DNA of 64,000 nt from contig NZ_CP045384.1 of the NCBI RefSeq assembly GCF_009363615.1, positions 2,540,501-2,604,500 on the forward strand, written 5' to 3'. Below the pieces are notes generated by a model, which was given only the letters and a program-made list of their open reading frames with translations, searched no databases and had not been told where the DNA came from. Of the stretch, positions 148-31,427 are shown in pieces. Source of the DNA: Ruegeria sp. THAF33 (GTDB taxonomy: Bacteria; Pseudomonadota; Alphaproteobacteria; Rhodobacterales; Rhodobacteraceae). The position numbers were made by a program, and so were the translations under genes. Each line of letters starts with the position of its first letter. Position 1 is the first letter of the stretch.

Positions 148-1924
148 ACTGGTCCTGAGGGATAATGCGAAGACCCAGCTCCATCAACTGATCCGAGGTC
201 GGGTCCGAAGGTGCGTCCATCATCAGATCTTCGGCGCGCTGGTTCATCGGGAACATCATGACTTCGCGGATATTGGCCTCATCTGCCAGCAGCATCACGA
301 TCCGGTCGATACCAGCCGCGCATCCACCGTGTGGCGGGGCGCCGTAGTGGAAGGCATTGAACAGGGCACCAAAGCGGGATTTTACTTCATCCTCGCCATA
401 GCCCGCCAGTTCAAAGGCCTTCAGCATGATTTCCGGCTTGTGGTTCCGGATCGCGCCTGAAACCAGCTCGTACCCGTTGCACGCCAGATCATACTGGTAG
501 CCGCGCACATCCAGCGGGTTGCCCTGCAACGCCTCCATACCGCCCTGCGGCATCGAGAACGGGTTGTGCTCAAAGTCGATCGCGCCGGTTTCCTCGTCTT
601 GCTCATAGATCGGGAAATCGACGATCCAGGCAAAGGCAAAACGGTCTTTTTCGGTCAGGTTCAATTCCTCACCGATCACGTCACGCGCCTTACCGGCAAC
701 CTTTTCAAAGGCTTTTGGCTTACCGCCCAGGAAGAAGGCTGCATCGCCGACACCCAGACCCAGTTGCTGACGGATTGCCTCGGTGCGCTCGGGGCCGATG
801 TTCTTGGCCAGCGGACCTGCGGCGTCCATCCCCTCACCCTGATCGCGCCAGAAGATATAGCCCATGCCTGGCAGACCCTCTTTCTGGGCAAAGGCGTTCA
901 TGCGGTCGCAGAACTTGCGGCTGCCGCCGCCCGGCGCGGGGATCGCGCGGATCTCGGTGCCTTCCTGTTCAAGCAGCTTGGCGAAGATCGCGAAACCGGA
1001 ACCGCGGAAATGCTCGGATACCACTTGCATCTTGATGGGGTTCCGCAGGTCCGGCTTGTCAGTGCCGTACCACAGCGCCGCGTCCTTGTAGGAAATCTGC
1101 GGCCACTCTTGGTCCACCTTACGACCACCGCCAAACTCTTCGAATACGCCAGTCAGAACCGGTTGGATGGTGTCGAACACGTCCTGCTGCTCGACAAAGG
1201 ACATCTCGAGGTCGAGCTGGTAGAAATCGGTGGGCGAGCGGTCGGCCCGCGGGTCTTCGTCACGGAAGCACGGCGCAATCTGGAAATACTTGTCGAAGCC
1301 CGACACCATGATCAGCTGCTTGAACTGCTGCGGGGCTTGCGGCAACGCATAGAATTTGCCCGGATGCAGGCGCGAAGGCACCAGAAAGTCGCGCGCGCCT
1401 TCGGGTGACGAGGCGGTGATGATCGGCGTCTGATACTCGCGAAAGCCCTGATCCCACATCCGTTTGCGCATGGACGCAACCACGTCCGAGCGCAGGGTCA
1501 TGTTCCGCTGCATCGCCTCGCGGCGCAGGTCCAGATAGCGATAGCGCAGGCGTGTTTCCTCGGGGTATTCCTGATCGCCGAAGACCATCAGCGGCAATTC
1601 GTCGGCGGCCCCCAGAACTTCCAGTTCGCGCACGTAAACCTCGATCTCGCCGGTGGGCAGTTTCGGGTTCACCAGATCCGGGTCACGGGCTTTGACGGTG
1701 CCGTCGATGCGGATACACCATTCGGACCGCACCTTTTCCAGCTCGGCAAAGGCGGCGCTGTCGCCGTCGCACAGGATCTGGGTTACGCCGAAATGGTCGC
1801 GAAGATCGATGAACAGCACGCCCCCATGATCTCGAACCCGATGCACCCAACCGGACAGGCGAACGGTTTCTCCAACATTGGCGGCGGTCAAGGCGGCGCA
1901 GGTGTGGCTGCGATAGGCGTGCAT
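146..1924 (-). CDS. aspS: Aspartate--tRNA ligase
   Basis: Class II aminoacyl-tRNA synthetase that charges tRNA-Asp with aspartate. The 592 residues match the bacterial-type enzyme. The N-terminal OB-fold anticodon-binding domain (about 1-110, [11 protein letters not shown]) is followed by the catalytic core with motif 2 ([19 protein letters not shown], around residues 218-236), the bacterial GAD insertion (about 290-420), and motif 3 (GIDRIVML) near the C terminus. The start is supported by AAGGGA six bases upstream of the ATG. It stands alone, ends in the shared terminator, and has no unusual features. Bacterial AspRS of this type may be discriminating or not; the sequence alone does not decide this. 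Confidence 0.97.
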
Positions 1925-2001
1925 GGAATATCCCTTCGGGCGCAGAATTCGTCGCGCCGATACACCCTGTCAGCCCCGGAAAGTCAAGGCGGGTTGCCCC
2001 T

Positions 2002-2673
2002 TCAAAACGGCCTTTGCACATTGCCCGAGTAGAAATATACGCCCAGCCCCACCGCAAAAATGATATTGCCCGCAATTGCGTGCAGCAACACCGCATAGAA
2101 GAATGACCCACGCTGCCGGTAGGCCCATGTGAACAGCAGGCCGCCGGCGAATGTCATCAGTGCGACGATCCAGCTCCAGTACATCAGGTGCGCGAACGAG
2201 AATATGGCCGCGTTCAGCAGATTGGCCGCACGCCCATCCGGCAGGATCGCGTGATAGCGGCGAAAGAACAGAGGGCGGAACAGCAGCTCTTGCGGCAGCG
2301 CTGACAAAAGTGGGTAGCCGACCCAGATGAAGGCTAGCATTTCGGGGCGGTGCACAAGCAGGAAGAACGCGGCATCCGGGCGCGTGATCTGAATCAGACC
2401 AACACAAAAGGCAGTCACGATGGCAGAGAACAAAGCCACCTCGCGCAGGGTCCAGTTGGCCCAGTCATAACGAAGCTCGGCCCATTGAAACCCGGGCGTC
2501 CGGTGCAGCAGCACGATACCAAGTCCGGTCAGCGCAAACAGCGCCGGAAACATCCAGTTCGGAGGGAAAAGAACAGCGATCAGCAGCGGCAAGCCAATAT
2601 AGAACAGGTTAAATTCCAGCCGCAGCCGTCGCAATGCAACCGGCGGTCCGATCATCATGCTGTTTTTTGTCAC
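2002..2673 (-). CDS. CPBP family intramembrane metalloprotease-like protein
   Basis: A polytopic membrane protein of 223 residues in the CPBP/Rce1 family (formerly CAAX amino-terminal protease or Abi). Family motifs are present: motif 1 as QELLFR (Q128, E129, R133), motif 2 as FAHLMYW (H162), and motif 3 as HAIAGN (H198, N203). The usual first glutamate of EExxxR is glutamine here. Hydrophobic segments occur near 22-58, 78-96, 112-128, 155-185 and 192-216. The substrate is unknown; relatives process prenylated proteins or bacteriocins, or act as scaffolds. The start codon overlaps the pabC stop by four bases (ATGA), so it is probably the last gene of the pabB-pabC transcript, although no functional link to folate is evident. 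Confidence 0.85.
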   Translation of the reverse strand: MTKNSMMIGPPVALRRLRLEFNLFYIGLPLLIAVLFPPNWMFPALFALTGLGIVLLHRTPGFQWAELRYDWANWTLREVALFSAIVTAFCVGLIQITRPDAAFFLLVHRPEMLAFIWVGYPLLSALPQELLFRPLFFRRYHAILPDGRAANLLNAAIFSFAHLMYWSWIVALMTFAGGLLFTWAYRQRGSFFYAVLLHAIAGNIIFAVGLGVYFYSGNVQRPF

Positions 2674-3317
2674 CCGTCTATCAGCTCCACCTCGATCAGT
2701 CCGCGCAGTGAATTTCCGATCCGCACAGTTTGCGCATTTTTCAGGTCGGTCAAGGTCAGCACGGCTTCGGTGACCGCTTTGTTTTCCAGCAGTTCTTCGC
2801 GCAGTATCCCCGGCAAGAGCCCACAGGACAAAGCGGGCGTCAGAACCCGGCCATCAGGCATTTCCAGAAACAGGTTCGTGATGGTGCCTTCACAAAGCTC
2901 ATCCAGTTCATTCAGAAACAACAGTTCGTCCAATCCCTCGGGCAGCGTTGCGCGCGCGGAATCATAGAGCGCACGGCGCGTGGTCTTGTGACGCAACCAC
3001 AGGTCATTCGAAGCCAGACGCTGATCCGACAGAGCGACGCGCCAGGTTCTGGGATTGTCCACCAGTTCGCCGGTCGACAGATCGAACGAGCCCGACACAT
3101 CCAGCGTAAGGCGGCAACGCAGCGTGGTGTCACAAGCAGCGCTTTTCAGTCTGGTGGTCGCTTCATCGGGGTTGAAAGGAATCTCGAACACCCGCGCAGT
3201 ACGGGCCATTCGCGCAAGATGGCGGTCCAGCCTGACAAAGCCCTGATCCGGGCGGAAGGCCAGTGTTTCAATCAGGCTGAAATCAGGTTCAGCTGGCGGG
3301 CGAAGCGGGCTTTCCAT
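2670..3317 (-). CDS. pabC: Aminodeoxychorismate lyase-like class IV aminotransferase
   Basis: A PLP-dependent fold-type IV enzyme of 215 residues. Together with the upstream pabB it most likely converts 4-amino-4-deoxychorismate to 4-aminobenzoate plus pyruvate for folate synthesis. The PLP lysine is visible in RHKTTRR (K111), and the cofactor-binding glutamate lies in ELCEGTITN (E143). The start has a very strong ribosome binding site (GAGGAGG, 4-5 bases upstream), which makes the 46-base overlap with the end of pabB credible. The protein is shorter than E. coli PabC (269 aa) but typical of alphaproteobacterial versions. A branched-chain or D-amino-acid transaminase cannot be excluded by sequence alone; the neighbour makes PabC the best reading. 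Confidence 0.85.
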   Translation of the reverse strand: MESPLRPPAEPDFSLIETLAFRPDQGFVRLDRHLARMARTARVFEIPFNPDEATTRLKSAACDTTLRCRLTLDVSGSFDLSTGELVDNPRTWRVALSDQRLASNDLWLRHKTTRRALYDSARATLPEGLDELLFLNELDELCEGTITNLFLEMPDGRVLTPALSCGLLPGILREELLENKAVTEAVLTLTDLKNAQTVRIGNSLRGLIEVELIDG

Positions 3318-4405
3318 AACGCCTCCTCATACTCTGACGGGGCGGTACTGTCCCAAACGACACCGCCGCCTACGTTCAGAGTGGCCTGATCATCCTCAAG
3401 CATCAAGGTGCGGATGGCCACGTTGAACTCGGACCGACCATCCGGCGCGGCCCAACCAATCGTTCCGCAATAGATGTCGCGCGCCCATGGCTCCAGTTCC
3501 GCCAGAATTTCCATCGCGCGGATCTTGGGGGCTCCGGTGATCGACCCGCAGGGAAACAGTGCTGTCAGTATTTCACCCAACCCCACGCATTTGTGCAGCT
3601 GCGCCCGCACCAGCGAGACCATCTGATGTACGGTGGCATAGGTTTCCACCCGGAACAGGTCAGGCACATGAACGGATCCGGGCAGCGCGACGCGGCTGAT
3701 ATCGTTGCGCAGCAAATCAACAATCATCAGGTTCTCGGCCCGATTCTTTTCGTCCGCGCTCAGAAAAGCCCGGCGGCGCGCATCCTCATCCGGGTCTTCA
3801 CTGCGCGGTTGCGTGCCCTTCATCGGCCGGGTTTCGATCCTCCCACCCTCATCGGTGCGGAAAAACAACTCCGGCGAGCGGCTGAGCAGATCGGGCAGCC
3901 CATCCTGTTGCACCAGTGCTCCGTGGCCCACCGGCTGCCCCGCCGCCAGCGCGGCGTAGAGCGTTTCGCTGTTGCCCGAGACGGTCAGATCAATCGGAAA
4001 GGTCAGGTTGGCCTGATAGATGTCGCCGGCACCAATGGCGTCATGCACGGCGCTGAAGGCCTTGCCGTATCGCGCTTCATCCCATCGCGGCCGGAATGCG
4101 CCCACTTCGCCCGCAGGCGACGGAAGGGCGACCCGATCCGGTGCATCATAGACCCCAAAGCACAACAAAGGCAGGCGTCGTTCTTCCGGCAAAAGACCAT
4201 TGAGCCGGGGTTCAAGCGTATAGCCCAGCTCGTAACTGGCATACCCTGCCAGCCAGGCACCAGCTGCGCGCGCCTCGTCCAATGCCGCCAGAGCCTGGGG
4301 CACGTCCTCCGCCACATCCGCGCGGATCACCTGAGACGGACGCTGAAACCGGGTTCCTCGCCCGGCCGGTCCCTGATCGAAACGAATACGCACTTGCATC
4401 CTCAT
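3272..4405 (-). CDS. pabB: Aminodeoxychorismate synthase component I
   Basis: Chorismate-utilising enzyme that makes 4-amino-4-deoxychorismate from chorismate and ammonia or glutamine. The catalytic lysine signature is RPMKGTQPR (K196), followed by ENLMIVDLLRND and the chorismate-binding motif GSITGAPKIRAMEIL. At 377 aa it is the short alphaproteobacterial form, lacking the longer N-terminal region of E. coli PabB. The open frame continues far upstream but only as an antisense shadow of carB, so the start is at 4405 (ATG AGG) or 4399 (ATG CAA); neither has a strong ribosome site. The glutamine amidotransferase partner (PabA/TrpG) is not in the window. It is divergent from carB. Confidence 0.93.
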   Translation of the reverse strand: MRMQVRIRFDQGPAGRGTRFQRPSQVIRADVAEDVPQALAALDEARAAGAWLAGYASYELGYTLEPRLNGLLPEERRLPLLCFGVYDAPDRVALPSPAGEVGAFRPRWDEARYGKAFSAVHDAIGAGDIYQANLTFPIDLTVSGNSETLYAALAAGQPVGHGALVQQDGLPDLLSRSPELFFRTDEGGRIETRPMKGTQPRSEDPDEDARRRAFLSADEKNRAENLMIVDLLRNDISRVALPGSVHVPDLFRVETYATVHQMVSLVRAQLHKCVGLGEILTALFPCGSITGAPKIRAMEILAELEPWARDIYCGTIGWAAPDGRSEFNVAIRTLMLEDDQATLNVGGGVVWDSTAPSEYEEALWKARFARQLNLISA

Positions 4406-4487
4406 TTGCCGTGAGGGGCCATATAGAGAATACTCTGCCAAGTGAAAGAGGGGAAAGCGGCAATTTCGCCCCTGTTTCCGATACCTC

Positions 4488-4515
4488 TTGCACCTTTTTG
4501 CGCGGTCCCTATAAC
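4488..4515 (+). promoter_or_regulatory. Predicted sigma-70-type promoter of carB
   Basis: TTGCAC (4488-4493) and TATAAC (4510-4515) are separated by 16 bases and lie about 60 bases before the carB ATG. This is inferred from consensus only. It predicts an untranslated leader of roughly 55 bases. Confidence 0.55.
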
Positions 4516-4576
4516 GCAGGACAATTTGGGCGCTGGGGCGGTGCCCTGACTCGCGGACAATCGAAGGAACAAGGCC

Positions 4577-7921
<3,345 letters not shown>

Positions 7922-7961
7922 CCCGCCTGAGCCACAATTGGCCCATCAATGAACGAAAAGA

Positions 7962-8003
7962 TGCGCGCCCGTTGACCTGAACGCAACGGGCGCGCATTTC
8001 TGG
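7962..8003 (+). terminator. Terminator-like hairpin after carB
   Basis: A perfect 12-bp inverted repeat (TGCGCGCCCGTT at 7962-7973, AACGGGCGCGCA at 7985-7996) closes an 11-base loop and is followed by TTTCTGG. The U-tract is short, but position and strength fit carB termination. Confidence 0.7.
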
Positions 8004-8073
8004 TTCTCGTAATCTTCACTGCACTGGCCGCCTGTGACGTGCCGTTTGTTCCTTTGATCTAACCTGATTGGAC

Positions 8074-8089
8074 CCAGCTTTTCAGCTGG
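8074..8089 (-). other. GNRA-type hairpin downstream of the RND operon
   Basis: On minus, CCAGCT and AGCTGG enclose GAAA, a stable GNRA tetraloop, 20 bases after the RND pump stop codon. There is no U-tract, so it may protect the mRNA 3' end or assist termination rather than act as a classic intrinsic terminator. Confidence 0.35.
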
Positions 8090-8108
8090 ACCCACAAGAG
8101 GCCAGTGT

Positions 8109-11100
8109 TCAGGCTGCCAGCGCCTCGCGTTTTTCATCGCGCGCAAAGAAGAGCAGGTAGAACACCGGCGCGGCGACCATTGTCAGGACGGTCGCAAAAG
8201 CCAGCCCGCCCATGATCGTCACCGCCATCGAGACGAAGAACGCATCGGTCAGCAGCGGCGCCATGCCCAGAATGGTCGTGATCGCAGCCAGCATCACCGG
8301 GCGCAAACGCGAGACCGAGGCTTCGACGATGGATTCGCGCAGGGGCTTGCCCGTGGCGCGAACCAGGTCGATCTCTTCCACCAGCACGATGCCGTTCTTG
8401 ATCAGCATGCCCGACAGGCTGAGCAGGCCCAGAAGGGCTGTAAAGGTGAAGGGCAGCCCAGTTCCCAACAGGCCGATGACCACGCCGTTGACCGACATCG
8501 GAACCAGCAGCCAGATGATGATCGGCTGTCGGATCGCGTTGAACAGCAGGACCGAGATCAGAACCATGATCAGCAGGCTCAGCGGCAATTGTTTGCCCAG
8601 GCTTTCTTGCGCGTCGCGCGAGTTTTCGAACTCACCGCCCCACTCCATCTTGTAGCCCGGTGGCAGTTCGATGGCCTCGATGGCGTCCCGAACTTCGGCG
8701 TGTACCTGAGCCGCCGTCAGGTCGGGCGGGATGTCCGCGCCGACGGTGATGGTCAGAACACGATCGCGGCGATGAACCAGCGTATTGAGGGATTTGTACT
8801 CGAATCCATCGACCATCTGTTCGATTGGTACAAATTTCCCGGATTGGTCCGAGTACACCACCTGATCGACGATGGAATAATCTCCGTCCGCCGGACGACG
8901 CAGGATGATGGGGATCAGGCGGTCACGTTCCCGCAGCACACCGCCCGTGATGCCATCGGTCGAAAATTGCAGCGTGGCCGCAATGTCTTCGCGCGTAACG
9001 CCCGCGGTCTGGGCCCGTTCCGTGGCATAGATCGGCTGCACCGCCAGTTCCTGTTCGCGCCAGTCATGATGAACGAGCAGGGCGTTGGGCGACGCCGCCG
9101 CCATGCGCTGCACGGCCTCGTCCGCAAGTTGTCGCAGTACCACCGGATCGCTGCCCGAGAACCGGGCCTGGATCGGATCGCCGCCGCCGGGGCCAAACAC
9201 CAGGCGCTTGGTTCCGAACTCGCCTTCGGGGAACTGGACCGACCCGAACGCTTCCAGATCCGCTTGCAAGGCCGGGATGTCATCCAGACTTTCCGTGCGG
9301 ATGATCATGTGACCATAGCTCGGGTTCGGTTTCTCTGCCGAATAGGTCAGCATGAACCGGGTTGCCCCCTGACCGACGAATGTCGTGACCGAAACCACGT
9401 CATCGCGTTGGGTCAGCCAATCTTCGAAAACCGCCATGTCCTGTGCCGTGCGGGCAATCGGCGTGCCTTGAGGCAGCTTGTAATGCACAAAGAACAAAGG
9501 CGTGTTCGAGTTGGGGAAGAATTGTTGTTTCATCAACCCGAACCCGGCATAGCACGCAACGGTTACGCCGATGAGACCCGCAACAACCAGCCACCGAAAA
9601 CGGAGCGCAAACCGCAGGATCGCGCCATATGTGCGGAACAGGATGCCCCCGTAGGCGTCGATCTCACCCTCCTTGCCCTGCTTGAAGAAATAGTGCCCAA
9701 GCAAAGGCGTGACCGTGATGGCAAGTATCCAGCTGAGCAGCAGCGAAATGCCGATCACCGCAAACAGGGAAAACAGAAACTCGCCCGTTGCGTCGGGGCT
9801 AAGACCGATGCCTGCAAAGGCCATGATACCGATTACGGTGGCCCCCAGCAGCGGGATCTGGGTTTTCGACGCCACATCTTCAGCGGCATCGCGCGAGGAC
9901 TTGCCGCGCAACATCGCGATCTGCATCCCTTCGGCAACCACGATGGCGTTGTCCACCAACATCCCCATGGCAATAATCAGGGCCCCGAGTGAAATTCGCT
10001 CCATCTCGATCGAAAACAGCGACATGAACAGAAGCGTGCCGACTACGGTCAGCAACAGGGTCGAACCGACGACGATGGCCGCGCGCCAGCCCATGAAGAT
10101 TCCCAGTACGGCGACCACGATGGCCACTGACATGGCCAGATTCACCAGAAAGTCGTTCGAGGCCTGCTCGACCACCACATGTTGCTGGTAGATCGGCAGA
10201 ATATCGACACCGAAGGGGATATTCGCATCCAGCTCGGCAAATTTGGCGTCAGCCCGCTTGCCGACCTCGACGATGTTTTCCGTCGCCAGACCGGCGATGC
10301 CGAGGGTAAAGGCTTCGGTCCCGTTGTAGCGGATCATGATGTCCGGATCGTTCTGACGGGCGCGATAGACATCGGACATGTCGAACAGGTTGATCACCTG
10401 CCCTTGCGAGCCGACAGACAGGCCCGCAATGGCCGAGACACTGTCCGAACCCTCGGCCGTCAGAATGGTGGTACGGGCATCTTCAGACCGCAAAGACCCC
10501 GAGGAATTCACCGAATCCGCATTGGCTATGGCTTCGTTGATCGCTTGCAGCGGGACGTTCTGGTTCACCGAGATCGCCAGGTCGGGCTCTACAAAAATCG
10601 CCTCGTCCGGCAGGCCCTGAACCTCGACATCGGCGACGCCGTCCACGGTCAGCAGTTCGCGACGCAGAAACGTTGCCAGTTCATGCTTTTCGGCGTCAGA
10701 AAACCCTTCGGCAGTCACCGCATAGAACAGGCCGAACACATCACCGAACCCGTCATTCACATAGGGTTGGCTGACACCCGACGGAAGCCCGCGGGCGGCA
10801 TCGCGCACCTTGGCCCGCAGGCGGGTCCAGATATCGGGCAGTTCGGTGCCGTCGTAGGTCGACTTGATCTCTACTTCGATCAGCGATTGTCCGGGTTGGT
10901 TGACCGAGGTGATGACGTCCACCTCGCCCATCTGCTGGATCGCGGATTCAAGGGGTTCGGACACTTCAAGCGCCACCTGTTCCGCCGTGGCACCGGGATA
11001 TTGCGTGGCGATGACCGCGTTCTTGATGGTGAAAGCCGGGTCTTCCAAACGACCAAGCGACGTGAATCCCCAGATGCCACCGAAGAGGGCAATGAGGATG

Positions 11101-24066: not shown

Positions 24067-24849
24067 ATGACTATTCCTAATTCACTGGCCCGTGCGGCCA
24101 GAAATGCGATCGAAACGACAGCCATGCTGCGGGAAGCACCGCGGCCGGTTGCGAAACCAAAGGCTCAGCTGCGCCGGTATGAAGTCAGCAGCCTGTTGAA
24201 AAACGGAAACGTGGTTCAGACCAGACACATCGCGCCCGCTCTGCCAATGTTCGAAGACGCCTTTTGTGCCTTCACGCGCGGATCGCTGGTTGAAACGGAA
24301 CATGGGCCCATGGCCATCGAAGACCTGATGCCGGGGGATACAGTCCTGACTCAGGATGGCGCGTCGGAAACCGTGCTGTGGAAGGGATCTGTCACTCTGA
24401 TCCCCGGACGCCCGGATTCGCGGGGCCGCACGCGGCCGCTTACGCGCGTCACGGCAGATACATTCGGGATGCAAAAGCCGATGTCGGGTGTAATCGCCGG
24501 GCCTGCAGCACGGATCGTGGGCACACCGACGCATTTACGGCATTTGTATGGAAATGACCCGATTCTGACACCTGTGTCCGAATTTCAGGATGGAACGGGC
24601 GTGATTGAAACAATGCCGCCGACGCCAGTTGAACTGTTTCACATTTGTCTGAAACGGCATTCCGTTATTCGGGTAGATGGTTTACAGTTCGAAACGTATC
24701 ACCCAGGTGTGAACGCGGTCCGGATGATCAGCCACTCGTTGCGGTCGGTTTATCTGAACCTGTTTGCGCATATCGAGTCGCTCAACGATTTTGGTCCGCT
24801 GCTGATGCCGCGTGCCGGGGACGGAGAAATCGACGCGATGACAGCCTGA
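24067..24849 (+). CDS. Hint domain-containing protein
   Basis: A 260-residue protein with a Hedgehog/intein (Hint) domain from about residue 67: CAFTRGSLVETEHGPMAIED followed by LMPGDTVLTQDG. This is the start of the family in Rhodobacteraceae, where such proteins are numerous and often attached to secreted repeats. The leading cysteine expected at a Hint start is present (C67). The last third carries VELFHICLKRHSVIRVDGLQFETYHPG, the end of the fold. There is no signal peptide or C-terminal extein-like repeat, so autoprocessing partners are unclear. It stands alone. Confidence 0.85.
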   Translation: MTIPNSLARAARNAIETTAMLREAPRPVAKPKAQLRRYEVSSLLKNGNVVQTRHIAPALPMFEDAFCAFTRGSLVETEHGPMAIEDLMPGDTVLTQDGASETVLWKGSVTLIPGRPDSRGRTRPLTRVTADTFGMQKPMSGVIAGPAARIVGTPTHLRHLYGNDPILTPVSEFQDGTGVIETMPPTPVELFHICLKRHSVIRVDGLQFETYHPGVNAVRMISHSLRSVYLNLFAHIESLNDFGPLLMPRAGDGEIDAMTA

Positions 24850-25624: not shown

Positions 25625-26638
<1,014 letters not shown>

Positions 26639-26706: not shown

Positions 26707-26735
26707 CAGTGCCCCCGGGGTTTAAGGGGGCACTG
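26707..26735. other. Perfect 10-bp hairpin between trxB and the cyclase gene
   Basis: CAGTGCCCCC (26707-26716) and GGGGGCACTG (26726-26735) are exact complements enclosing GGGGTTTAA. No U-tract follows on plus, so it could stabilise the trxB 3' end or mark a Rho-type termination zone. It sits 69 bases after trxB. Confidence 0.4.
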
Positions 26736-26853: not shown

Positions 26854-28545
26854 TTGAACAACGCTCTTTGGCGCGGCGGGTGGTCAACCCGACTCAGGAT
26901 CGTCAGTGGTCTTGTGTTGTTTGTGTTCGCGTTCTTTCACTTCATAAATATTGGCTTGGGCCTATTTCACACGGATTACCTGCACGGGATGCAGGACGGT
27001 CGAAAGGCCGTCACCCGCCACGATGTCATGAGCGTGCTTCTCTATGCTGCCCTGTTCACGCATGCAGGTCTGGCCCTGACATCGATCGCGCAACGCAGAA
27101 CCCTGCGCATGCCCTTCAGCACGGCGTTGCAGGTCGTTCTGGGCTTGCTGATTCCGCTGCAACTGATCTCGCACATCGTGCAGACGCGGGTCGCGCACGA
27201 AGTCTATGACGTCAATGACGAGATGGGATATATCATCATTTTGATGTGGCCCAGTATCGCCGTATGGATGCAAAGCGCCTTGTTGCTGATCGTTTGGATA
27301 CACGGCTGCATCGGTTTGCATATGTGGTTGCGGCTGACCCGGTGGTGGTCGCGGGTCGTGCCCTATCTGATCGGCGTTGCGGTTTTCGTGCCATTATTCG
27401 CGTTGGCCGGATTGCTGACCGAAGGTCGACGCATATGGGCCGACTTTGCTGATGAATTCCTGCGCGAGCAATATATCGAGCACTACAATTGGCCATCGCC
27501 CGAAGCCTTCCAGACCCTGTTCAGTGTAAAAGATTATGGCCTTTTGATCTTCTGGCTGGCTCTGGGGGCGACGGGTCTGGTTTACATCGGGCGCAAACTG
27601 TGGCGGCGCAGGCATTCGGTGCGCGTGAATTACGCCAAAGGGCCCGAGGTGGTCGCGGAAAAAGGCATGACGTTACTTGAGATTTCGCAGGTGAACGGCG
27701 TGCCGCACGCCGCCTTGTGCGGTGGAAAGGGGCGCTGCACCACATGCCGTGTCATCGTAGAGGATGGCAGCGACGCCCTGCCGCCGCCCGGCGACGTCGA
27801 AGCACGCAGCCTTGCCGCTGTGGGCGCCTCGCCGCAGACGCGACTGGCCTGCCAGATACGCCCAACGGAACCCACCACTGTTTTTCGGGTTTTCAGGCCA
27901 GATGGCGGGCGCATACGCGGACATGCCAGCCAGGGTCAGGAACGTCAGTTGGCTGTTTTGTTTCTGGACATGCGCAGCTTTACCGCGCGCACGACCGGCC
28001 AATTGCCTTATGACATCGTGTTCCTGCTGAACCGGTTTTTCGATGCGGTCGTACCTGCCATCACCAAGGAAGGCGGTGTCGTGGACAAATATATGGGAGA
28101 CGGGCTGCTTGCCGTTTTTGAAAAGCCGAAAGCGGCGGCGTCCGCCCGTGCCGGGTTGAAAGCCGCCATCGACATCAGTCACGCCCTTGATGAATTCAAC
28201 GCACAGCTCGAGGCCGAAGGAAGCCCCGGCATTCGCATCGGGATGGGTCTGCATCTTGGGGATCTGGTGGTGGGTGAGATCGGAGCCGCGGGCCATGCGT
28301 CGAAAACCATAATCGGCGACGCCGTCAATGTCGCCAGCCGTCTGGAAAGCGAAACCAAGGCGCTGAAGGTCGAACTGCTGGTCTCGGAAGAGTTGCTGAA
28401 GGCCGCAGGTGTCGTCGTGCCCCAGAACGGCATCAGATTGTTCCAGCTGCGCGGCGTGTCTGAACCGATTCCCGCCCTGCCCGTCACCCGTGCGTCCACA
28501 CTTGAGCAGAACGCCACAAAACAGGAACAGAAATTCTCTGCATGA
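26854..28545 (+). CDS. Membrane adenylate cyclase with diheme-b-like anchor and 2Fe-2S ferredoxin domain
   Basis: A class III nucleotidyl cyclase of 563 residues with three modules. (1) Residues 15-250 have six predicted transmembrane segments and histidines in or at helices (H29, H70, H107, H115, H150, H156), as expected for heme b ligands in succinate dehydrogenase-type anchors. (2) A plant-type 2Fe-2S ferredoxin domain at about 255-345 has cysteines C289, C295, C298 and C333. (3) A cyclase domain at about 365-545 has metal Asp D372 (FLDMRSFT) and D416 (KYMGDGLLAVF), the adenine-selecting lysine K412, and the transition-state Asn/Arg in DAVNVASRLE (N493, R497). All catalytic residues are intact, so it should make cAMP. 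TTG 26854 is preferred because AGGTG lies five bases upstream; an in-frame TTG at 26821 lacks a site. S. meliloti CyaC is a known cyclase with a quinone-responsive diheme-b anchor, so redox or quinone sensing is the likely job here, by analogy. Confidence 0.85.
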   Translation: MNNALWRGGWSTRLRIVSGLVLFVFAFFHFINIGLGLFHTDYLHGMQDGRKAVTRHDVMSVLLYAALFTHAGLALTSIAQRRTLRMPFSTALQVVLGLLIPLQLISHIVQTRVAHEVYDVNDEMGYIIILMWPSIAVWMQSALLLIVWIHGCIGLHMWLRLTRWWSRVVPYLIGVAVFVPLFALAGLLTEGRRIWADFADEFLREQYIEHYNWPSPEAFQTLFSVKDYGLLIFWLALGATGLVYIGRKLWRRRHSVRVNYAKGPEVVAEKGMTLLEISQVNGVPHAALCGGKGRCTTCRVIVEDGSDALPPPGDVEARSLAAVGASPQTRLACQIRPTEPTTVFRVFRPDGGRIRGHASQGQERQLAVLFLDMRSFTARTTGQLPYDIVFLLNRFFDAVVPAITKEGGVVDKYMGDGLLAVFEKPKAAASARAGLKAAIDISHALDEFNAQLEAEGSPGIRIGMGLHLGDLVVGEIGAAGHASKTIIGDAVNVASRLESETKALKVELLVSEELLKAAGVVVPQNGIRLFQLRGVSEPIPALPVTRASTLEQNATKQEQKFSA

Positions 28546-28741: not shown

Positions 28742-30463
28742 ATGACGATGTTAAGCAATCTGGCCCCGATCCCCGAACTGTATGTGTCATACGATTCGGC
28801 GCAGAAACTGAAGGTGGAAGCGGCTGACCTGACCAGCTGGGATTTGAGCCCGCGTCAGATCTGCGACCTGGAACTTCTGATGAATGGCGGGTTCAACCCG
28901 CTCAAGGGATTTCTGAGCGAAGCGGATTACGACAATGTGGTCGAGAATATGCGCCTGGCCGATGGAACGCTTTGGCCAATGCCCATCACATTGGATGTCA
29001 GCGAAGACTTCGCGGATCAGATCGAACTTGGGCAGGATATCGCTCTGCGTGATCAGGAAGGCGTAATCTTGGGCACCATGACCGTGACCGACCGCTGGAC
29101 TCCGGACAAGTCACGCGAGGCAGAGAAGGTCTTTGGTGCCGATGACGATGCCCACCCGGCAGTGAACTATCTGCACAACGTGGCCGGCAAGGTCTATCTG
29201 GGCGGACCGGTGGTCGGAATCCAACAACCCGTGCATTACGATTTTCGTGGGCGCCGCGACACCCCGAATGAATTGCGCGCCTATTTCCGCAAGCTGGGCT
29301 GGCGCCGCATCGTGGCCTTCCAGACCCGCAACCCGCTGCACCGCGCGCATCAGGAGCTGACCTTCCGCGCCGCCAAAGAGGCACAGGCCAACCTGCTGAT
29401 CCACCCGGTCGTGGGCATGACCAAACCGGGCGACGTCGATCATTTTACCCGCGTGCGCTGTTACGAGGCGGTGCTGGACAAGTACCCCGCCTCGACCACC
29501 TCTATGAGCTTGTTGAACCTGGCCATGCGCATGGCTGGCCCGCGCGAGGCCGTCTGGCACGGCCTGATCCGCGCCAACCACGGCTGCACCCACTTCATCG
29601 TCGGCCGCGACCACGCAGGCCCCGGCAAGAACAGCAAGGGTGAGGATTTCTACGGCCCCTATGACGCGCAGGATCTGTTCCGACAGTTTCAGGACGAAAT
29701 CGGCGTTGAAATGGTGGACTTCAAGCACATGGTCTATGTGCAGGAACGCGCCCAGTACGAACCGAATGACGAGATTCTCGACAAGGACAACGTCACGATC
29801 CTGAACATCTCGGGTACCGAACTGCGCCGCCGCCTGCGTGAAGGGCTGGAAATCCCCGAATGGTTCTCGTTCCCCGAAGTGGTCGAGGAACTGCGTCGCC
29901 GCTTCCCGCCGCGCTCCAAGCAGGGTTTCACCGTCTTCTTCACCGGCTTTTCGGGCTCGGGCAAGTCGACCATCGCAAACGCGCTGATGGTCAAGCTGAT
30001 GGAGATGGGCGACCGCCCGGTGACGCTGCTGGATGGCGACATCGTGCGCAAGAATCTCAGCTCGGAACTGGGCTTCTCGAAGGAACACCGCGACCTGAAC
30101 ATCCGTCGCATCGGATATGTGGCGTCCGAGATCACCAAGAACGGCGGCATCGCCATCTGCGCCCCGATTGCGCCCTATGCCACCACACGCCGTGCCGTGC
30201 GGGAAGAGATCGAACAGTTCGGAGCCTTCTGCGAGGTGCATGTGGCCACCAGCATCGAGGAATGCGAACGCCGCGATCGCAAGGGTCTGTACAAGCTTGC
30301 GCGCGAGGGCAAGATCAAGGAGTTCACCGGCATCTCGGACCCTTACGATGTTCCGGAAAACCCCGAGCTGCGCGTCGAAACCGAAAATGTCGAGGTCGAC
30401 AACTGCGCCCATCAGGTGCTGCTGAAACTGGAAAGCATGGGCCTGATCGCAGCAAACGGATAA
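28742..30463 (+). CDS. Bifunctional sulfate adenylyltransferase / adenylylsulfate kinase
   Basis: A fusion of 573 residues. The N-terminal ATP sulfurylase (about 1-390) activates sulfate to APS; its ATP-binding signature is QTRNPLHRAHQEL (about 198-210), with GRDHAGPG later. The C-terminal APS kinase (about 395-570) makes PAPS; it has the P-loop FTGFSGSGKSTIA, DGDIVRKNLSSELGF, and APYATTRR. This serves assimilatory sulfate activation or supplies PAPS for sulfotransfer. It stands alone, with no reductase genes nearby. A strong terminator follows. The start is the first of two nearby ATGs. Confidence 0.95.
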   Translation: MTMLSNLAPIPELYVSYDSAQKLKVEAADLTSWDLSPRQICDLELLMNGGFNPLKGFLSEADYDNVVENMRLADGTLWPMPITLDVSEDFADQIELGQDIALRDQEGVILGTMTVTDRWTPDKSREAEKVFGADDDAHPAVNYLHNVAGKVYLGGPVVGIQQPVHYDFRGRRDTPNELRAYFRKLGWRRIVAFQTRNPLHRAHQELTFRAAKEAQANLLIHPVVGMTKPGDVDHFTRVRCYEAVLDKYPASTTSMSLLNLAMRMAGPREAVWHGLIRANHGCTHFIVGRDHAGPGKNSKGEDFYGPYDAQDLFRQFQDEIGVEMVDFKHMVYVQERAQYEPNDEILDKDNVTILNISGTELRRRLREGLEIPEWFSFPEVVEELRRRFPPRSKQGFTVFFTGFSGSGKSTIANALMVKLMEMGDRPVTLLDGDIVRKNLSSELGFSKEHRDLNIRRIGYVASEITKNGGIAICAPIAPYATTRRAVREEIEQFGAFCEVHVATSIEECERRDRKGLYKLAREGKIKEFTGISDPYDVPENPELRVETENVEVDNCAHQVLLKLESMGLIAANG

Positions 30464-30590: not shown

Positions 30591-31427
30591 ATGACGAACA
30601 GGTCTCCGACCATTGCCAGTTTCTGGTTTGGATCCGATCTGAGTTGGTTGGAGCAACTCTGCCTTCAGTCCTTTCTGGATCATGGCCACCGCTTCGTCCT
30701 GTATGTCGCGCACGAGGTAAAAGGCATTCCGGCAGGCGTCGAAACCCGCCCTGCCAGCGACGTTTTCTGGCCCCCGCCTTTTGTGGTCAAGGCCGAAGAC
30801 AGACAGGGCGTTGCCGTCTTCTCGGATATTTTCCGGCTGCACCTGATGCGGCAAGGCGAGATGATCTGGGTCGATCTGGATGCCTATTGCGTACGGGCGT
30901 TTGAATTTTCGACGGATTTCGTGTTCGGTCGCTCCAGGCGGGGTGACTTCCCAACTGGTGTGCTGCGCCTGCCCACAAGATCGGCGACCCTGGAACAGAT
31001 GCTGGAATTTGTCATGTCGTCTAACCCGTCCCAACCCTGGCGTGGACGCAGATTGCAGCGCCACAATCGGGAACGAACCGCCAGAGGGGAACGCTGGGGC
31101 ATCGAAGCCCTGCCCTGGGCCAGTTCGGGGCCCAAAGCCTTTGGCCATTTCCTGCGCCAGACGGCAGAAGACCACCATGCCATGGCTGCCGAAACCTTTT
31201 ATCCGCTGGCCCAGGAGGAATTGTGGAAGCTCCATGATCCGCGCATCGCGACGAACGAAATCGAAACCGAAGCCGTGCATTCGGTACACATCTACGGCCA
31301 TCAGAAGAAACTGATGGCCAACCGGATGGCCGGGCTGCCGGTTTCAGGGTCATATCTGGACAGGTTGTGTAAACGACACGGGATCGAACCAAGTACGGCC
31401 CCGATTCTGCGGTTGGCCTGGATGTAG
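30591..31427 (+). CDS. GT-A type glycosyltransferase-like protein with a DXD motif
   Basis: A 278-residue soluble protein. It starts with SFWFGSDLSWLEQLCLQSFL, typical of the sugar-binding DXD family (GT32-like or capsule-type transferases), and has the metal-binding DXD at D95-D97 (VDLDAY). FRLHLMRQGE precedes it, as in that family. There are no surface-sugar biosynthesis genes nearby, so the acceptor is unknown. It lies just after the sat/cysC terminator and appears to be its own transcription unit. A related unassigned hypothetical family is possible. Confidence 0.7.
   Translation: MTNRSPTIASFWFGSDLSWLEQLCLQSFLDHGHRFVLYVAHEVKGIPAGVETRPASDVFWPPPFVVKAEDRQGVAVFSDIFRLHLMRQGEMIWVDLDAYCVRAFEFSTDFVFGRSRRGDFPTGVLRLPTRSATLEQMLEFVMSSNPSQPWRGRRLQRHNRERTARGERWGIEALPWASSGPKAFGHFLRQTAEDHHAMAAETFYPLAQEELWKLHDPRIATNEIETEAVHSVHIYGHQKKLMANRMAGLPVSGSYLDRLCKRHGIEPSTAPILRLAWM

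Follow-up and report, generated by a model that had tools for sequence, protein, structure and literature searches.

What does a membrane-bound adenylate cyclase sense when a putative heme-binding anchor and an iron–sulfur domain are joined to it in one polypeptide? The question is raised by a gene in a stretch of 64,000 nucleotides ("the window", meaning the whole stretch) from Ruegeria sp. THAF33 (contig NZ_CP045384.1, positions 2,540,501 to 2,604,500). An earlier note, made from the sequence alone, had described three joined modules in an open reading frame (ORF) at 26854..28545, and its coordinates, strand and domains are borne out. The protein is very probably the Ruegeria ortholog of CyaC of Sinorhizobium meliloti, a membrane adenylate cyclase with a b-type anchor that reportedly responds to quinone. 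The observations behind this assignment are the domain order, the conserved ligands, the match of the anchor fold, purifying selection, and homology over the full length; strict orthology and the cofactor content of the Ruegeria protein are what we infer from them. The three-module architecture is already published for CyaC. More surprising than the window gene itself is the cyclase-free form of the same unit, which is encoded beside a channel gene in other genomes.

The gene and its modules

The gene comprises the following features, in window positions.
26854..28545, plus strand: cyaC-type gene, 563 amino acids, TTG start, AGGTGA four bases 5′ of it
26854..27609, plus strand: six-helix membrane anchor (residues 1–252), with H29, H70, H107 and H150
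27643..27867, plus strand: [2Fe-2S] ferredoxin domain Fer2 (residues 264–338; Pfam E 1.2e-8), with C289, C295, C298 and C333
27943..28377, plus strand: class III cyclase catalytic domain (residues 364–508; Pfam Guanylate_cyc E 5.6e-12), with D372, D416, K412, T485, N492 and R496

The [2Fe-2S] domain with its four cysteines sits between the anchor and the cyclase. The class III cyclase has the two metal-binding aspartates, the Lys/Thr pair and the Asn/Arg pair, including every catalytic residue named in the earlier note. No Pfam family was matched in the anchor part, and NCBIfam gave a hint of the sdhC b558 family at residues 9–47 that is far below its cut-off (E 0.3; 10.7 bits versus 96). The six membrane helices proposed earlier appear as six long helices in an AlphaFold2 model of the anchor alone (residues 10–37, 57–79, 88–118, 136–159, 165–199 and 216–251; mean predicted local distance difference test score 96), and the fold of this predicted model is that of the b subunits of succinate:quinone oxidoreductases. 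Weighing against the assignment, the search tool's caution on helical bundles applies to this match. Two fold searches with the whole model gave only cyclases among the matches listed (50 for each).

Many Ruegeria database entries share the length of 563 amino acids (95–99% identity to the window protein), and among named proteins the nearest come from strains of Ruegeria, at 99% identity. Other predictions, including one for the window itself, start 20 residues later and give 543 amino acids; because the two coexist, the TTG start is provisional. Across 59 loci of Rhodobacteraceae, the codon closest to the aligned start is TTG in 28, GTG in 18 and ATG in 12, with none usable in one. The ratio of nonsynonymous to synonymous substitution (dN/dS, Nei–Gojobori; dS saturated in some pairs) is 0.06–0.09 against six relatives and 0.23 against a seventh, and the gene is therefore maintained by purifying selection. 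A promoter and terminator scan found no promoters (1.4 expected) and three terminator-like sites (3.4 expected).

Conservation of ligands and catalytic residues

Relatives were compared in an alignment of 184 sequences, which includes the window protein, about 30 rows of its own genus, and redundant rows. H29, H70, H107 and H150, which are predicted to coordinate two hemes B axially, and the four cluster cysteines, correctly identified before, are each present in 184 of 184. Such a pattern in distant relatives supports the redox-sensing, CyaC-type diheme reading of the earlier note; H115 and H156, which it had also listed, are histidine in only 85 and 126 of the 184 and were rejected as ligands. 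All eight ligands are likewise kept in a set of 58 sequences gathered by translated search alone. The patterns used to find loci L066–L145 included part of the cysteine motif and part of the cyclase, and the class-sample and phylum-sample loci are the 30 best of each, so that degraded relatives are under-sampled.

In the cyclase domain, D372 and D416 are kept throughout the 184 rows (D416 in 93/94 of a second alignment), N492 in 180 (Met 2, His 1, gap 1), R496 in 181 (Gln 2, gap 1) and T485 in 169 (Ser 12, Ile 2, gap 1), with one N492 miss and one R496 miss being a truncated row. The position of K412, which we take to be the adenine-selecting lysine, holds Lys in the window protein; across the 94-row alignment the counts are Lys 72, Gln 19, Gly 2 and Thr 1. 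Since it varies, nucleotide choice may vary too, and, judged from this residue, some of the 19 relatives with Gln may have a different nucleotide preference or a different activity.

Matches at E 1e-40 or better occur in 54/54 genomes of the genus, 35/248 of the family sample, 111/385 of the class sample and 50/398 of the phylum sample, where the samples overlap, include the window's own genome, and count some partial matches (anchor–ferredoxin or ferredoxin–cyclase only). In a plasmid collection with 165 records, of which 30 were listed, the four relatives examined all carry a cyclase. The window gene extends a biochemically studied redox cyclase to the roseobacters, across every sampled genome of the genus.

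The [2Fe-2S] domain as part of CyaC

The primary CyaC paper, by Wissig in 2019, is said to name the [2Fe-2S] cluster in its abstract. A Sinorhizobium protein of 557 amino acids (P0135), named CyaC by its source, carries Fer2 in the same three-domain order and, standing in for the S. meliloti sequence itself, is 37% identical to the window protein over 522 columns spanning anchor, ferredoxin and cyclase. Its Lys, Thr, Asn and Arg at 410, 484, 491 and 495 agree with the numbering of S. meliloti CyaC in a passage of PMC10463352; P0127 and P0128 share this numbering and P0140 is off by one. A figure legend of that paper gives S. meliloti CyaC two hemes B and a [2Fe-2S] cluster, and its text reports that the enzyme responds to quinone and is activated by oxidation; diheme regulation is mentioned in passages of two reviews (PMC9552081, PMC13259868). 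On the strength of the legend and the P0135 alignment, the view of the 2Fe-2S module as something added to CyaC was rejected, which removes the notion that this module is new. By analogy, the Ruegeria protein is predicted to bind two hemes B and a [2Fe-2S] cluster and to have quinone-dependent activity; it is probably a CyaC-type, quinone-responsive, diheme cyclase.

From quinone to cyclase: one chain or two inputs

In the mechanism proposed, the anchor would be built like the cytochrome b subunit of a diheme fumarate reductase or succinate dehydrogenase, and its two hemes B would exchange electrons with the quinone pool. H29 and H107 would pair around a heme in the half away from the cytoplasm, and H70 and H150 around another in the cytoplasmic half. 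The inner heme would equilibrate with the cluster of the cytosolic ferredoxin domain, the presumed last relay, and the redox state of the cluster would set the activity of the following cyclase dimer, so that cyclic AMP (cAMP) would be a readout of respiratory chain oxidation.

The principal alternative takes up the second electron input of the earlier note: the [2Fe-2S] domain would receive electrons independently of the hemes, perhaps from a soluble reductase of the NAD(P)H or thioredoxin type (the neighbouring trxB might encode one), and the protein would integrate two redox signals. Fer2 domains usually take electrons from soluble reductases, ferredoxin-cyclases without an anchor exist, so that such a domain can work without hemes, and trxB adjoins the window cyaC. 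The surroundings of the gene are as follows.
25697..26638, plus strand: trxB-like gene upstream (Pfam Pyr_redox_2), not shown to be part of the system
26707..26735, plus strand: hairpin of 29 bases between trxB and cyaC (-22.1 kcal/mol), with no T run after it
28742..30463, plus strand: ATP-sulfurylase/adenylylsulfate (APS) kinase gene (sat/cysC) downstream (Pfam), not part of the system

The two genes are 215 bases apart, and the strong hairpin between them argues against simple co-transcription, although it falls short of proof. Upstream trxB was found in 13/13 named Rhodobacteraceae loci and downstream sat in 12/13, versus 0/67 for each among the other named loci, some of which have short flanks; trxB was also found in 45/46 further genus and family loci (1.5-kb flanks). 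Because it was found beside the gene in Rhodobacteraceae only, its place is read as an inherited position, and a trxB operon was rejected on the hairpin and this restricted adjacency. Furthermore, the anchor and Fer2 remain joined in proteins that lack the cyclase, and these retain the eight ligands, as expected of one continuous electron path. With the cluster already described in S. meliloti CyaC by the PMC10463352 legend, the module implies no second input, and nothing shows one. A separate input is therefore unlikely, and one chain from quinone through hemes and cluster to the cyclase is the simpler reading. More improbable still is a purely structural or vestigial role for the cofactors, with the cyclase under some other control, for instance by partner proteins or an unknown ligand of the anchor: the cyclase domain does fold like other class III domains, and the redox response of the Ruegeria protein is predicted by analogy, but the eight ligands are invariant in the 184 rows and PMC10463352 reports that S. 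meliloti CyaC responds to redox state.

Among the eight window neighbours scanned, no TetR gene was found (Pfam, E 1e-4), and hence none in the place that cycR takes beside cyaC. The CyaC–CycR–Clr cascade of S. meliloti, a downstream partner system outside the enzyme family, is not claimed for Ruegeria. The window's genome has nine cyclic-nucleotide-binding domains over the Pfam cut-off, none tied to cyaC; cAMP receptors may therefore be present. Elsewhere in the window, 24067–24849 encodes a Hint_2 protein (PF13403, E 2.7e-32) near an Lrp-type regulator and trxB, and 30591–31427 is an ORF of 278 amino acids with no Pfam match at E 1e-4 and a 60% identical counterpart in locus L066.

The same unit beside MscS-type genes

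Where genes for the anchor and [2Fe-2S] domain lack the cyclase, an MscS-type channel gene follows in 12 of the 12 examined. The two genes overlap by 1–4 bases in nine pairs and are separated by 5, 8 and 56 bases in three, distances that depend on start codons chosen by script. Two pairs are placed as follows.
L192, minus strand: stand-alone gene 3491–4651, MscS-type gene 1188–3494
L193, plus strand: stand-alone gene 6920–8080, MscS-type gene 8077–10008

In L192, L193 and L195 the stand-alone genes encode 385–386 amino acids with Fer2 and no cyclase, and the next gene, on the same strand, encodes 643–768 amino acids with MscS domains (PF00924, E 6e-12 to 5e-17); L263 is a fourth pair of this kind (E 3.8e-16). 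The remaining pairs (L278–L285) are all the further stand-alone matches at E 1e-60 or better in two groups: seven in the genus of G154 (8/58 genomes, counting G154) and one in the family of G060 (2/39, counting G060). In these eight the adjoining gene was assigned by identity, at 43–71% to the Pfam-checked channel proteins. Eight of the 12 pairs are in one genus, so that the independent lineages number about three or four; two are in other Rhodobacteraceae genera and two in another family. Partial matches of the class sample that are not intact stand-alone genes were excluded before this count: G217, G287 and G367, where the contig ends on the downstream side, and L194 (G348) and L196 (G079), where a cyclase lies in another reading frame just downstream. 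In these last two (L194, 6697–7902 and 5919–8474; L196, 6845–8134 and 7705–8565) the cyclase resumes in the other frame after the ferredoxin, by either a frameshift or a sequencing error.

Of the eight ligands, H29 is present in 11 of the stand-alone proteins (the twelfth is cut by the contig start) and the other seven in all 12. Among the best 120 of 184 relatives of a stand-alone query, 107 have 340–430 amino acids, and these keep the four histidines and three cysteines in 107/107 and the fourth cysteine in 106/107. Two channel queries found nothing at E 1e-6 in 183 loci around cyclase-fused genes (80 with flanks up to 6 kb, 103 up to 1.5 kb). A tree with 94 cyclase-fused and 27 stand-alone proteins, made by a quick method with a midpoint root, has one branch that separates the two kinds (Shimodaira–Hasegawa-like approximate likelihood ratio test, SH-aLRT, 99), and the possibility that the stand-alone proteins are merely truncated CyaC was rejected on this branch. 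Of the 27, 15 were taken from a database with a stand-alone protein as the query, and L263 and L278–L285 likewise came from stand-alone queries, whereas L192, L193 and L195 were recovered with the window protein as the query; because most rows were picked in this way, a tight stand-alone group is favoured. At E 1e-30 the sole match in the genome of the window is the window gene, so that no stand-alone copy was found there.

Other outputs

Anchor-less ferredoxin-cyclases occur in other Proteobacteria (L197, L198, L199, L200), L198 with no anchor matched in a family scan and the other three by match range and translation only. Two further proteins add a Rieske domain (E 1.3e-9 in L201 and 4.1e-11 in L203), and so hold two different [2Fe-2S] types within one cyclase protein.
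L201, 6077–7456, minus strand: ferredoxin, class III cyclase and C-terminal Rieske domain
L203, 6251–7636, plus strand: ferredoxin, class III cyclase and C-terminal Rieske domain

Gene order and conservation, on which alone this view is built, suggest that the heme/iron–sulfur unit may be a portable quinone-redox sensor with interchangeable outputs. We put forward only tentatively the joint reading that the unit serves different effectors, in which the channel pairing would represent a novel type of channel under redox control. No paper on an MscS/ferredoxin or a ferredoxin/Rieske/cyclase pairing was among the matches listed in a search of open-licence PubMed Central titles and abstract beginnings. 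If true, the pairing of this unit with a channel gene would couple the permeability of the membrane to the redox state of respiration; comparing the outputs makes the role of the iron–sulfur domain directly testable.

Comparison with known systems

According to PMC10463352, S. meliloti CyaC (SMc01818) has a six-helix anchor with two hemes B, a [2Fe-2S] cluster and a class III cyclase, which are also the modules and predicted cofactors of the window protein; however, its gene adjoins the TetR gene cycR and a LysR gene, whereas the Ruegeria gene lies between trxB and sat/cysC. The Sinorhizobium protein P0135 agrees with it in module order and catalytic residues, and the four histidines and four cysteines are aligned. 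Subunit C of Wolinella succinogenes quinol:fumarate reductase is, in contrast, 14% identical to the window protein; it is without a ferredoxin or cyclase domain and works with separate catalytic subunits. The anchor-less ferredoxin-cyclases share the order of Fer2 followed by a class III cyclase but have no matched anchor, and in L201 and L203 a Rieske domain follows the cyclase. The stand-alone proteins share the anchor, Fer2, and the four histidines and four cysteines, but differ in the missing cyclase, in having their own branch of the tree, and in the MscS-type gene that comes next.
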